NCBI RefSeq assembly: GCF_026586625.1
Contig: NZ_JAODIW010000010.1
Span: 582,755 to 646,754 of the forward strand
DNA: 64,000 bases
From: Halobium salinum
Lineage (GTDB): Archaea; Halobacteriota; Halobacteria; Halobacteriales; Haloferacaceae
Reading direction: 5' to 3'
The notes below the pieces were generated by a model, which saw nothing but the letters and a program-made list of their open reading frames with translations, made no database searches and had not been told where the DNA came from. Of the stretch, positions 7,830 to 55,806 are shown in pieces (position 1 is the first letter of the stretch; each line of letters begins with the position of its first letter). Position numbers and translations under genes: made by a program.

Positions 7830-8495
7830 TTACTCGTCCCGGGCGTCGGCGACGACCTGCGAGAACTCGCGGGCGCGCTCGGTGACGGCCTCGAAGTCGC
7901 CGGCCTGCACGGCCTCGTCGTCGACGAGGGCGCTCCCGGCGCCGACGCAGACCGCGCCGGCGTCGATGAAGTCGGCGGCGTTGTCGAGGTCGACGCCGCC
8001 GGTGGGCATGATGGGAACCTGGCCGAGCGGGCCCTTGATGGCGCTCACGTGCTCCGGGCCGCCGGTCTTTGCCGGGAACACCTTCACGAAGTCGGCGCCG
8101 GCCTCGTAGGCGTCGATGGCCTCGGTCGGGGTGAACACGCCCGGCGCGACGGGGACGCCGTAGCGGTTGCAGACGCGGACGACCTCCTCGGAGAAGGTGG
8201 GCTGGACGACGAACTCCGCGCCGGCGAGGATGGCCGACCGGGCGGTCGCCTCGTCGAGGACGGTGCCGACGCCGACGACGACGTCGCTCCCGGCGAGCGC
8301 GTCGGTCACGTCGTCGAGCATGTCCATGACGCCGGGCGTGTCGGCGGTGAGTTCGATGGCGGTGACGCCGCCTTCGGCGAGCGCCTCGGCGGTGTCGACG
8401 ACGGTGTCGGCGCCCGCCCCGCGGAGGACGGCGACGACGCCCGAGTCGACTATCTTTCCGATGGTCTCCTGTGTGTCGAGTGTGGGTGCGGTCAT
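7830..8495 (-). CDS. kdgA: KDPG/KHG aldolase family enzyme
   Basis: 221 residues. Class I aldolase of the KDPG family: GVVAVLRG (phosphate/substrate arginine), AIELTADTP (catalytic Glu), GVGTVLDEATA, FVVQPTFS, and DFVKVFPAK with the Schiff-base lysine, then MPTGGVDLDN. It would split 2-keto-3-deoxy-6-phosphogluconate to pyruvate and glyceraldehyde 3-phosphate, the last step of the semi-phosphorylated Entner-Doudoroff route used by haloarchaea. Length and motifs are complete. ATG 8495 is chosen; upstream extension on this strand is open but unconserved. No sugar-kinase neighbour is seen here. Confidence 0.85.
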   Translation of the reverse strand: MTAPTLDTQETIGKIVDSGVVAVLRGAGADTVVDTAEALAEGGVTAIELTADTPGVMDMLDDVTDALAGSDVVVGVGTVLDEATARSAILAGAEFVVQPTFSEEVVRVCNRYGVPVAPGVFTPTEAIDAYEAGADFVKVFPAKTGGPEHVSAIKGPLGQVPIMPTGGVDLDNAADFIDAGAVCVGAGSALVDDEAVQAGDFEAVTERAREFSQVVADARDE

Positions 8496-10919: not shown

Positions 10920-11434
10920 GCGGCGTCGAAGGGGCCGAGTCCGACTGCGAGGACCGGCCGCGACTCCTCCTCGACGTGATGCTCGGCAAGCTCGCGACGT
11001 ACCTCCGGATGTGCGGCTACGACACCGCCTACGCGCTCGACCGGGACGTGGAGGCCGACGACCGGCTGCTCCGGATGGCGGCCGAGGAGGGTCGGACGCT
11101 ACTCACCCGGAACGTACGCCTCGCCGAGCGCGCAGGCCGGGACGAGGGCGTACCCGGCGCGCTCCTCCTCGAAACCCGCGAGGTGGTCGACCAGCTCGCC
11201 GAGCTCCGGGCCGCCGGCTTCGTCCTCGCGCTCGCCAACCCGCCGCGGCGCTGTAGCGTCTGCAACGGTCGCGTCGAGGCGGTCGCGGAGGGGGAGAGTC
11301 GCCCGGACTACGCCCCGAACGACGGGTCGGCGTGGCGCTGCCGGAACTGCGGCCAGCTGTTCTGGAAGGGGAGCCACTGGGACGACGTTGCCGCGACGCT
11401 CGCGTCGGTGTCCGTCTCGGAAGAGGAGTCGTAG
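10916..11434 (+). CDS. Mut7-C RNase domain protein
   Basis: 172 residues. Starts with TTG 10916 inside the stop of polX (TTGA overlap); the next in-frame starts would cut the conserved opening PRLLLDVMLGKLATYLRMCG. N-terminal PIN-like Mut7-C fold with LLDVMLGKLA, YDTAYALDRDVEADDRLL, LLTRN; C-terminal zinc ribbon CSVCNG...CRNCGQLFWKGSHW (C-x2-C x n C-x2-C). Mut7-C proteins are predicted RNases or nucleic-acid binders. Translational coupling to PolX suggests a joint role but this is inference. Confidence 0.88.
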   Translation: MSGVEGAESDCEDRPRLLLDVMLGKLATYLRMCGYDTAYALDRDVEADDRLLRMAAEEGRTLLTRNVRLAERAGRDEGVPGALLLETREVVDQLAELRAAGFVLALANPPRRCSVCNGRVEAVAEGESRPDYAPNDGSAWRCRNCGQLFWKGSHWDDVAATLASVSVSEEES

Positions 11435-53954: not shown

Positions 53955-54271
53955 CGTTCTGAGATTGGAACACACAGGCCGCAGGAGAGCGATACGGGCG
54001 ACTACGTCGCCACGCACGTCCGCAATCCCAAAGTTCGGGCGTCTTGATCGATGACCCCGAACGAGTCAGATTTGCGGCTGTGCTGTTCCCGTCTTGTGTT
54101 CCCCGCGTCCGGGATTAAACGGTTTCGTTCCCGTCTTCGCGAGTCGTCTCGGACGGAACCGTCTCGGTCGGGTCCCGTAACGTCGTGACGACGCTCGAAA
54201 GCCCCTGGCCTCTCGGGTCCGGGGCCTCGCTGCGCGCTTCCCTCGCTCCCTTCGGTCGCTGTGCTTCTCGC

Positions 54272-55053: not shown

Positions 55054-55133
55054 GGGGGAGGGTCGCGGGCGAGCGCGAAGTAGCTGTCCCGTGCGAGACA
55101 ACCTCACCGCCGCCCGTCGAAACTTCGAAGCCC

Positions 55134-55140
55134 TTAATAA
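55134..55140 (+). promoter_or_regulatory. TATA-like box of tRNA-Ala
   Basis: TTAATAA in aagcccttaataatgg, centred 34 bases before the mature tRNA 5' end, giving a leader of about 7 bases. Confidence 0.65.
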
Positions 55141-55170
55141 TGGTTCCACGGAAGATGTAGATGCGTTCGA

Positions 55171-55242
55171 GGGCTCGTAGATCAGGGGTAGATCACTCCC
55201 TTGGCATGGGAGAGGCCCCGGGTTCAAATCCCGGCGAGTCCA
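55171..55242 (+). tRNA. tRNA-Ala (anticodon GGC)
   Basis: Full cloverleaf: acceptor GGGCTCG/CGAGTCC with the G3-U70 pair that identifies alanine tRNAs, D-arm GATC/GATC, anticodon stem CTCCC/GGGAG around loop TTGGCAT (anticodon GGC at 55203-55205), T-arm CCGGG/CCCGG with loop TTCAAAT, discriminator A at 55242. CCA is not encoded. It reads GCC and GCU. Its last 21 bases are repeated at 55366-55386. Confidence 0.95.
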
Positions 55243-55314
55243 CTACCGTTTCTCAGCGACACCACGCGAAGGAGCGGCGCGACTGAGCCGGTGGCGCGTG
55301 TTCGTGTGCCACGA

Positions 55315-55380
55315 GCCGGGATTTGAATCAGGGAGTGGAGCGAGCGCAGCGAGCGGAACGACCGTGGTTCAAATCCCGGC
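55315..55380. repeat. Inverted T-arm copy facing the duplicated tRNA end
   Basis: GCCGGGATTTGAA (55315-55327) is the exact reverse complement of TTCAAATCCCGGC at 55368-55380 and of the same segment inside tRNA-Ala (55223-55235). The 40-base interval is gagtggagcgagcgcagcg-type sequence. Confidence 0.8.
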
Positions 55381-55386
55381 GAGTCC
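55366..55386 (+). repeat. Duplicated 3' end of tRNA-Ala (putative att remnant)
   Basis: GGTTCAAATCCCGGCGAGTC plus C is identical over 21 bases to tRNA-Ala 55221-55241. Copying the T-arm and acceptor end of a tRNA is the usual mark of integration by a tyrosine integrase. Only 124 bases lie between the copies and no integrase is present, so it is a leftover site or a miniature element. Confidence 0.75.
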
Positions 55387-55401
55387 GCGTTTAGTATCGC
55401 T

Positions 55402-55806
55402 CTACGCCCGACTCCGCTCCACTTCCAACTCCTTCAACGTATCCGGCGTCTCCAACAGCGTCTCCAACCGGGCCTCGAACTCGTCGTCGTCCATCGACCC
55501 CTCGGCGTAGCGTCGCTTCAACACGGTGACGGGGTCCTCGGCAGGTTCCGCCTCCGCGACAGGTTCGGACTCCGCTTCGGTCTCCTCCTCGGACCCGAAA
55601 CTGTAGCCGAACAGCTCCTCCATCAGTGACTTGTCCTCGTCGAACAGGTCGAAGAAGGTCAGCCAGACGATGCCGTACATGATCCAGAACCAGAACGCCT
55701 CGAACGTCGCGCCGCCGCTGACCAGCGCGGCGGCGCCGACGAGGCCGAGCATGACGGCGACGACGTGGGCGAGGTTCGAGTCGAGAAGCTTCTCGGGGGA
55801 GACCAT
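55402..55806 (-). CDS. SHOCT-domain membrane protein
   Basis: 134 residues. Two TM helices (HVVAVMLGLVGAAALVSGG and FEAFWFWIMYGIVWLTFF), an acidic linker and a C-terminal SHOCT motif DPVTVLKRRYAEGSMDDDEFEARLETLLE. Common haloarchaeal architecture. SHOCT is a short helical module thought to mediate oligomerisation; function unknown. The ATG is followed upstream by a short A/T segment (aatatcaccgcatcaggtgataa) that may be promoter. Confidence 0.85.
   Translation of the reverse strand: MVSPEKLLDSNLAHVVAVMLGLVGAAALVSGGATFEAFWFWIMYGIVWLTFFDLFDEDKSLMEELFGYSFGSEEETEAESEPVAEAEPAEDPVTVLKRRYAEGSMDDDEFEARLETLLETPDTLKELEVERSRA

Follow-up and report, generated by a model that had tools for sequence, protein, structure and literature searches.

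The window, by which we mean the whole stretch of 64,000 nucleotides of Halobium salinum DNA that we analyzed, contains a tRNA-Ala(GGC) gene that is followed directly by a small unit built around two copies of part of the tRNA:

55171 to 55243, + strand: tRNA-Ala(GGC), the anchor gene (ARAGORN; Rfam RF00005 at 55171-55242, 65.6 bits)
55243 to 55386, + strand: the whole unit, 144 nt (a 92.4% identical unit lies behind tRNA-Ala(CGC) on contig C13)
55244 to 55314, + strand: S module, a hairpin-forming spacer directly 3' of the tRNA (folding of S modules from 92 units)
55315 to 55333, + strand: inverted T-arm copy, whose core at 55318-55327 is the T-loop plus the 3' strand of the T-stem (repeat search)
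55328 to 55365, + strand: L module, type I, CAGGGA...AGCGAGCG...CGACCGTGG (conserved core of covariance model R1)
55366 to 55386, + strand: direct copy of the tRNA 3' end, from the T-loop to the acceptor (21/21 against 55221-55241)

The template of both arms is a segment of 21 nt near the 3' end of tRNA-Ala(GGC), 55221-55241. A repeat search finds this segment, GGTTCAAATCCCGGCGAGTCC, at 55221-55241 and again at 55366-55386, identical at 21/21 positions and with a spacing of 145 nt, exactly as the initial sequence-only reading of this DNA had described. That reading also reported a 13-base inverted copy at 55315-55327; the copy is present and exact, but its length was understated, the match really covering 19 nt at 89% identity (55315-55333). 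The 19-nt inverted copy pairs with tRNA-Ala(GGC) and with the downstream direct copy alike, and the stretch of the window that contains the unit has a folding z-score of -3.8 against shuffled sequences. A search of the whole window with Rfam 15 returned only tRNA and an S15-Halobacteria ribosomal protein leader above threshold, and no family within the unit; the leader lies at 54014-54092 on the - strand (67.2 bits). The 144-nt interval contains neither an integrase gene nor a remnant of one, the sole overlapping open reading frame in our list (70 aa, 55298-55510) being mechanical, and a scan of genome contigs with the downstream reading frame as query gave no match.

The window unit recurs in the same genome behind tRNA-Ala(CGC) on contig C13. 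The identity between the two units is 92.4%; that between their flanks is 0.51 upstream and 0.46 downstream, against 0.49 and 0.48 for shuffled sequences. Two tRNA-Ala genes with unrelated surroundings share one precisely copied 144-nt unit. The suggestion of a tRNA-end duplication or miniature element made in the sequence-only reading fits this gene-less unit, which is bounded by tRNA-end copies behind both tRNA-Ala genes. In 30 genomes, a copy of at least 16/21 is found at 7 of 31 tRNA-Ala loci and is absent at 24, and therefore we can discard an old, static duplication, the outcome that had been named as refuting an integration-related origin.

A blastn search with 55100-55450 against 60 genomes detects segment 55318-55378 of the window throughout the order, at an identity of about 90%. 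The 24 copies at 21 loci are mostly located behind tRNAs (Ala, Gly, Ser, Arg, Asp, His, Lys, Thr, Leu, and Pro). The covariance model R1, which comprises the inverted arm, L, and the direct arm, was built from 22 copies. It has 37 matches in this genome, 26 of which are located 37-264 nt downstream of a same-strand tRNA, where only same-strand upstream tRNAs were considered among the 47 Rfam tRNAs; one further match lies behind a tRNA-Pro that only ARAGORN called. At E<=1e-5 plus stricter filters, R1 matches 99 of the 116 genomes sampled within the order (21 of 24 in a smaller sample) and 0 of 124 sampled genomes from elsewhere in the phylum. A 22-base pattern, searched across about 85,000 species, matched 81 stretches; among the matches listed, which represent 80 of these stretches, all come from halophilic archaea or unclassified euryarchaea by record title. 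One match to this pattern (L402) is in Actinarchaeum halophilum, which we take to lie outside the classical Halobacteria. The window unit is one member of a non-coding, cassette-like repeat family that occurs at tRNA 3' ends throughout the Halobacteria; the reality and the anatomy of this family are well supported.

The family is tied to tRNA genes, at least 35 kinds of which are followed immediately by units. In an independent sample, collected by pattern, 68 of 86 matches lie no more than 400 nt downstream of a tRNA (23 kinds). The remaining 18 include six at contig or stretch ends, nine within 139 nt of a tRNA when introns are allowed, one after a partial tRNA end (L392), and two without a tRNA (L371 and L419), which brings the total within 400 nt downstream to 77 of 86. 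On the acceptor side the direct arms in this sample agree with the adjacent tRNA at 768 of 816 positions (94%), and with other tRNAs at 48%. In the genome studied here, 23 of the 47 tRNAs are followed within 400 nt by a copy of their own last 20 nt (at least 15/20), and in 12 the copy is 20/20; in the upstream control, also of 400 nt, the best match does not exceed 13/20 for any of the 47. A chance origin of the tRNA-end copies is excluded. When arms were compared with all 47 tRNAs, the adjacent tRNA was the best or tied match of the direct arm in 19 of 25 units and of the inverted arm in only 13 of 25. This test was applied to 32 of the 37 R1 matches, of which 25 lie no more than 300 nt from the tRNA and 7 lie beyond that distance; four without a GTTC anchor and one without an upstream tRNA or anchor were set aside.

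Some similar sequences are located elsewhere. Away from tRNAs, at G000 C13:205105, C9:250993, and C2:250578, hairpins whose cores are L-like (AGGGAG...CGACCGTG) form arrays; they may be relatives of the L module. In L067, identical 54-nt parts of a unit, at 8305-8358 and 11221-11274, are 2.9 kb apart with a gene for a DUF6895 protein between them. A general intergenic hairpin motif (GAGCGAAGCGAG) was considered as a source; its count was dropped and the control was useless, because the motif reads identically backwards. A loose GGGA...CGAC pattern was also rejected as a marker, its 767 matches being mostly coding.

Units begin at the tRNA 3' end with the S hairpin, continue with the inverted T-loop and T-stem and the L module, and end with a direct copy that runs from the T-loop to the discriminator; with inverted arms, they are about 110-145 nt long. 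The identity of the direct arm to the tRNA (202 units) is 0.24 at offset -3 and 1.0 from offset -1, and falls from 0.99 at the tRNA 3' end to 0.62 just beyond. In the inverted arm, identity is limited to the T-loop and T-stem (180 units); in the profile of 202 units, it is 0.87-0.99 over the T-loop and the beginning of the T-stem, and has dropped to 0.52 at +10 and to 0.32 at +12. The units in both profiles were picked for their matching arms, and therefore only the outer drops in identity are free evidence. The inverted arm is present in 139 of 168 units; what the sequence-only reading took as a hint of a second event is a standard part of the unit. Where the direct arm is mutated, the inverted arm retains the tRNA base in 41 cases and shares the altered base of the direct arm in 6, a count that is biased because the inverted arm was located by its match to the tRNA and that leaves out viral stretches and loci with less than 300 nt downstream.

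The two modules differ in their folding. S modules have a mean folding z-score of -2.47 (n = 92 units), compared with -0.40 for control DNA 120 nt further on, and L modules without their arms fold weakly (mean z -0.80). The L modules fall into two or more sequence types that are unrelated to each other: besides type I (CAGGGA...CGACCGTGG) there are further ones, for example AGTCGC...CGTCT...CTCCGG. Genome G285 has no R1 match and harbors only units with the latter kind of loop, at 6 of the 30 tRNAs read, and the assumption that a genome is free of units when R1 gives no match is thus rejected for G285. In L408 (position 4518, GTTCAAATTTGAATC) and L419 (position 672, GTTCGAATTCGAATC) the arms are fused at the T-loop; these are possible recombination products.

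The units turn over rapidly. At a single orthologous locus, tRNA-Leu(taa), examined in 51 of the 52 genomes of one genus (G221 ends at a contig edge and was left out), five species have no unit, 27 have one, 16 have two, two have three, and one has four. Species whose upstream flanks are 92-97.5% identical nevertheless harbor different units (e.g., G126 and G205 at 97.5%). On a tree of the upstream flanks, the S types require 13 changes and the L types 14, compared to means of 14.7 and 14.7 for shuffled labels; typing and tree include 29 of 30 species (G229 has no unit), one S type was set by hand (G232), inverted loops were pooled with the forward type, and 2 of 41 units are without an L type. 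S and L types turn over within one genus as if placed at random on the tree. Among the 39 units typed for both modules, 13 of the 16 possible combinations occur, and the sequence across which the two modules reassort is a common stretch of 10-12 nt. L is inverted between its arms in G138 and G202, and the DNA past the arrays is variable as well. G208, which has no unit, represents a near-empty site: its sequence just past the tRNA is similar to what follows the arm copy in G215, and beginning at about 120 nt the two flanks can be aligned.

Arrays also appear to be polar. In 45 arrays with at least two copies, the proximal copy matches the tRNA better in 23 and the distal copy in 4, with 18 ties; viral stretches and loci with less than 300 nt downstream were left out, and the sample, like that for the arm boundaries, is biased toward loci fetched for matching. 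The p-value of 3e-4 overstates independence, because the sample includes many orthologous Leu and Asp arrays. Unit 1 of the tRNA-Leu(taa) array in G199 is approximately equal to unit 2 in G200, so that the arrays are shifted by one unit. Behind tRNA-Lys in G232, four identical 111-nt units are arranged in tandem, and behind tRNA-Leu in G286 an array has the order A-B-A-C, with both A units identical; these are recent events.

Gene-bearing elements inserted at the same tRNAs reveal the relative age of the units. The elements at tRNA-Arg(tct) and tRNA-Arg(tcg) each have a tRNA-end copy of their own as attR, after which come S, the inverted arm, L, and the direct arm. The attR precedes the S module, and thus the unit is older host flank that the element displaced; the units at both Arg loci therefore predate the insertions and are not their scars. 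The same layout rules out that a unit is the attR half-site of an ordinary integrated element. The stretch of about 32 kb from tRNA-Arg(tcg) to a matching tRNA-end copy (G000 C2:291753-323746, L261/L293) looks like an integrated element, and a PF00589 gene at C2:322780-323160 adjoins its far end, 0.5 kb off. At tRNA-Met (G000 C13:622671-639948, L258/L259), copies of the unit are located 43, 13,456, and 17,140 nt downstream, two of the three preceded by a 3' half of tRNA-Met; no PF00589 match is found in this stretch, which probably consists of nested integrated elements. On C11, a tRNA-Glu and two 3' fragments with the same end (G000 C11:1437457, 1451256, and 1519543) are accompanied by PF00589 genes at 1438307, 1452101, and 1488483.

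Carriage of the units by viruses or plasmids was considered and rejected. A blastn search (E<=1e-3) gave 0 matches in 50,697 phage and 72,556 plasmid records, the haloarchaeal share of which was not counted. Among 101 viral stretches containing a 14-mer, none has an inverted arm, and the only one with a T-arm after the 14-mer looks like a tRNA gene itself. The 11 viral stretches with a 17-base pattern contain one unit (L533), located behind a tRNA-Glu; we read both the tRNA and the unit as host DNA.

Our preferred explanation, to which we give somewhat less than an even chance, is that small non-coding cassettes were added at the tRNA 3' end through site-specific recombination in the T-loop. 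The T-arm of the tRNA would act as an attB-like site for a putative site-specific recombinase, most plausibly a tyrosine recombinase, and the crossover would take place in the T-loop. The DNA inserted there would be a small unit, circular or single-stranded, with a T-arm copy of its own that matches the tRNA. The incoming unit would restore the 3' end of the tRNA, and the old 3' end, shifted downstream, would become the direct arm. Repeated tRNA-proximal insertion would generate arrays in which the newest unit is proximal and the arms of older units decay. The inverted arm could form a hairpin with a double-stranded T-arm stem, similar to folded single-strand att sites, or it could be a second, inverted binding site that permits inversion and the exchange of modules.

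The sharp boundaries at the T-loop, the tandem arrays, their polarity, the exactness of the mobile segment, and reassortment point to T-loop site-specific recombination. Copying of the local tRNA, turnover, mixing of S and L types, identical tandem units, the near-empty site in G208, and the inverted L modules also count in its favor, although four identical tandem units can also originate through unequal exchange. PMC8371274 lists the T stem-loop among the three regions of a tRNA that integrases are known to use. Against recombination counts that we saw no recombinase, excised circle, or single-stranded form, and that the number of PF00589 genes does not correlate with R1: the mean is 9.3 both in 15 genomes with matches and in 15 without, the latter group including G285 with its units of other loop type. 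The weak folding of L counts against a strongly folded site, and a simple attP x attB exchange leaves unexplained why the inverted arm matches the local tRNA when loop types are common to different tRNAs.

An alternative explanation, which we consider unlikely, invokes replication without a dedicated recombinase: template switching at the T-arm and recombination between short repeats would make and remove units, and interspecies homologous recombination would spread the variants. The T-arm would undergo an inverted triplication, followed by duplication and deletion between direct copies of about 20 nt. The arrangement D - S - inverted D - L - D is indeed that of an inverted triplication, and PMC3119063 describes haloarchaea with many deletions between direct repeats of less than 20 nt. 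The four identical tandem units and the fused arms of L408 (GTTCAAATTTGAATC) are compatible with this route too. However, the L and S families are common to various tRNA kinds, genera, and families, so they were not created anew each time; furthermore, the arms are bounded by the start of the T-loop and the tRNA 3' end, and the reassortment of S with L spans a common sequence of 10-12 nt.

It is improbable, in our estimate, that the hairpins help the host to terminate tRNA transcripts or to process their 3' ends and are maintained by selection. The strongly folding S hairpins directly behind the tRNA, the location of the units on the tRNA strand, and their presence in 99 of the 116 sampled genomes of the order would agree with such a function. 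However, no unit is found at 24 of 47 tRNAs here, at 15 of 30 in G232, and at 24 of 30 in G285, and 5 of the 51 species are without any unit at the orthologous tRNA-Leu; the types change as if random on the tree, and no Rfam family other than tRNA is found at the unit. The preference of the inverted arm for the tRNA base (41 versus 6, with the bias noted above) is also unlike a selected hairpin.

We disfavor as very improbable the scar of a lost integrated element suggested by the sequence-only reading, with the tRNA as attL, the copy as attR, and the interior deleted: tyrosine integrases do leave copies of tRNA 3' ends, this genome has integrated elements with such copies at their ends (PF00589 next to one at C2:322780), and the direct repeat is present (21/21), but interior and spacing are conserved over the order, the same L and S families recur at many tRNAs and genera in a layout repeated behind dozens of tRNA kinds, the attR of the Arg-tct and Arg-tcg elements lies outside the unit, and the inverted T-arm copy characterizes 139 of 168 units.

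In this genome and one other, a fast-changing, patterned array stands at the end of about half of the tRNA genes; in a third, this is the case for 6 of the 30 that were read. If T-loop recombination is the correct explanation, then tRNA genes are standing platforms of a small-cassette system, beyond their role as targets of large elements, and many short partial tRNA copies in haloarchaea that are now called prophage scars would call for reinterpretation. Since its arms are copies of the host tRNA and its arrays look polar, the system provides a clear, testable model of mobile DNA adapting to new tRNA targets.

We found no description of such tRNA-anchored units in the open-access literature, the scope of our search, with subscription papers and preprints outside it; the nearest descriptions, in PMC3119063, are prophage-tied partial tRNA copies, short-repeat deletions, and SMR-A in Haloquadratum. 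As described there, SMR-A resembles the units in being a non-coding haloarchaeal sequence of about 110 bp with inverted repeats, tied to palindromes and mobilized in an unknown way, and it is found inside the palindromes of IS605-type elements without target duplication (PMC3119063). In contrast, the units studied here are located behind tRNA genes and have tRNA-end copies of about 20 nt. With integrase attL and attR sites at archaeal tRNA genes, as presented in PMC8371274, the units share the tRNA 3'-end copy, the T-loop and acceptor region as target, and accretion at one tRNA. They differ in being gene-less and about 110-145 nt long, in their conserved interior and inverted T-arm copy, and in their simultaneous presence behind at least 35 kinds of tRNA.

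The attP of CTX-phi type phages is a folded single strand, in which the stem of a hairpin rebuilds the double-stranded target. The stem of a unit hairpin would likewise restore a duplex target; however, no phage is involved here, the sole unit in the scanned viral contigs (L533) being the one behind tRNA-Glu that we read as host DNA. Integrons are arrays of tandem cassettes whose attC sites are imperfect palindromes with a variable inner part, and whose cassettes reassort; archaeal integrons are reportedly the subject of a published study. The direct arm does not contain the attC R-box, the consensus of which is GTTRRRY; its sequence is GTTCAAA here and GTTCGAA in many other units. The units are also unlike integrons in carrying no genes and in having a tRNA gene as the fixed site, and an integron integrase was not seen, judging from PF00589 counts only. 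The similarities to integrons are the tandem units, the best-matching copy next to the fixed site, the imperfect palindrome, and reassortment. A tentative proposal, which we judge rather more apt to fail than to hold, is that the arrays belong to a distinct haloarchaeal recombination system, in which tRNA genes would be the fixed entry sites of cargo-less cassettes and a T-loop recombinase would add, invert, reassort, and retarget hairpin modules tailored to the tRNA, producing integron-like polar arrays.
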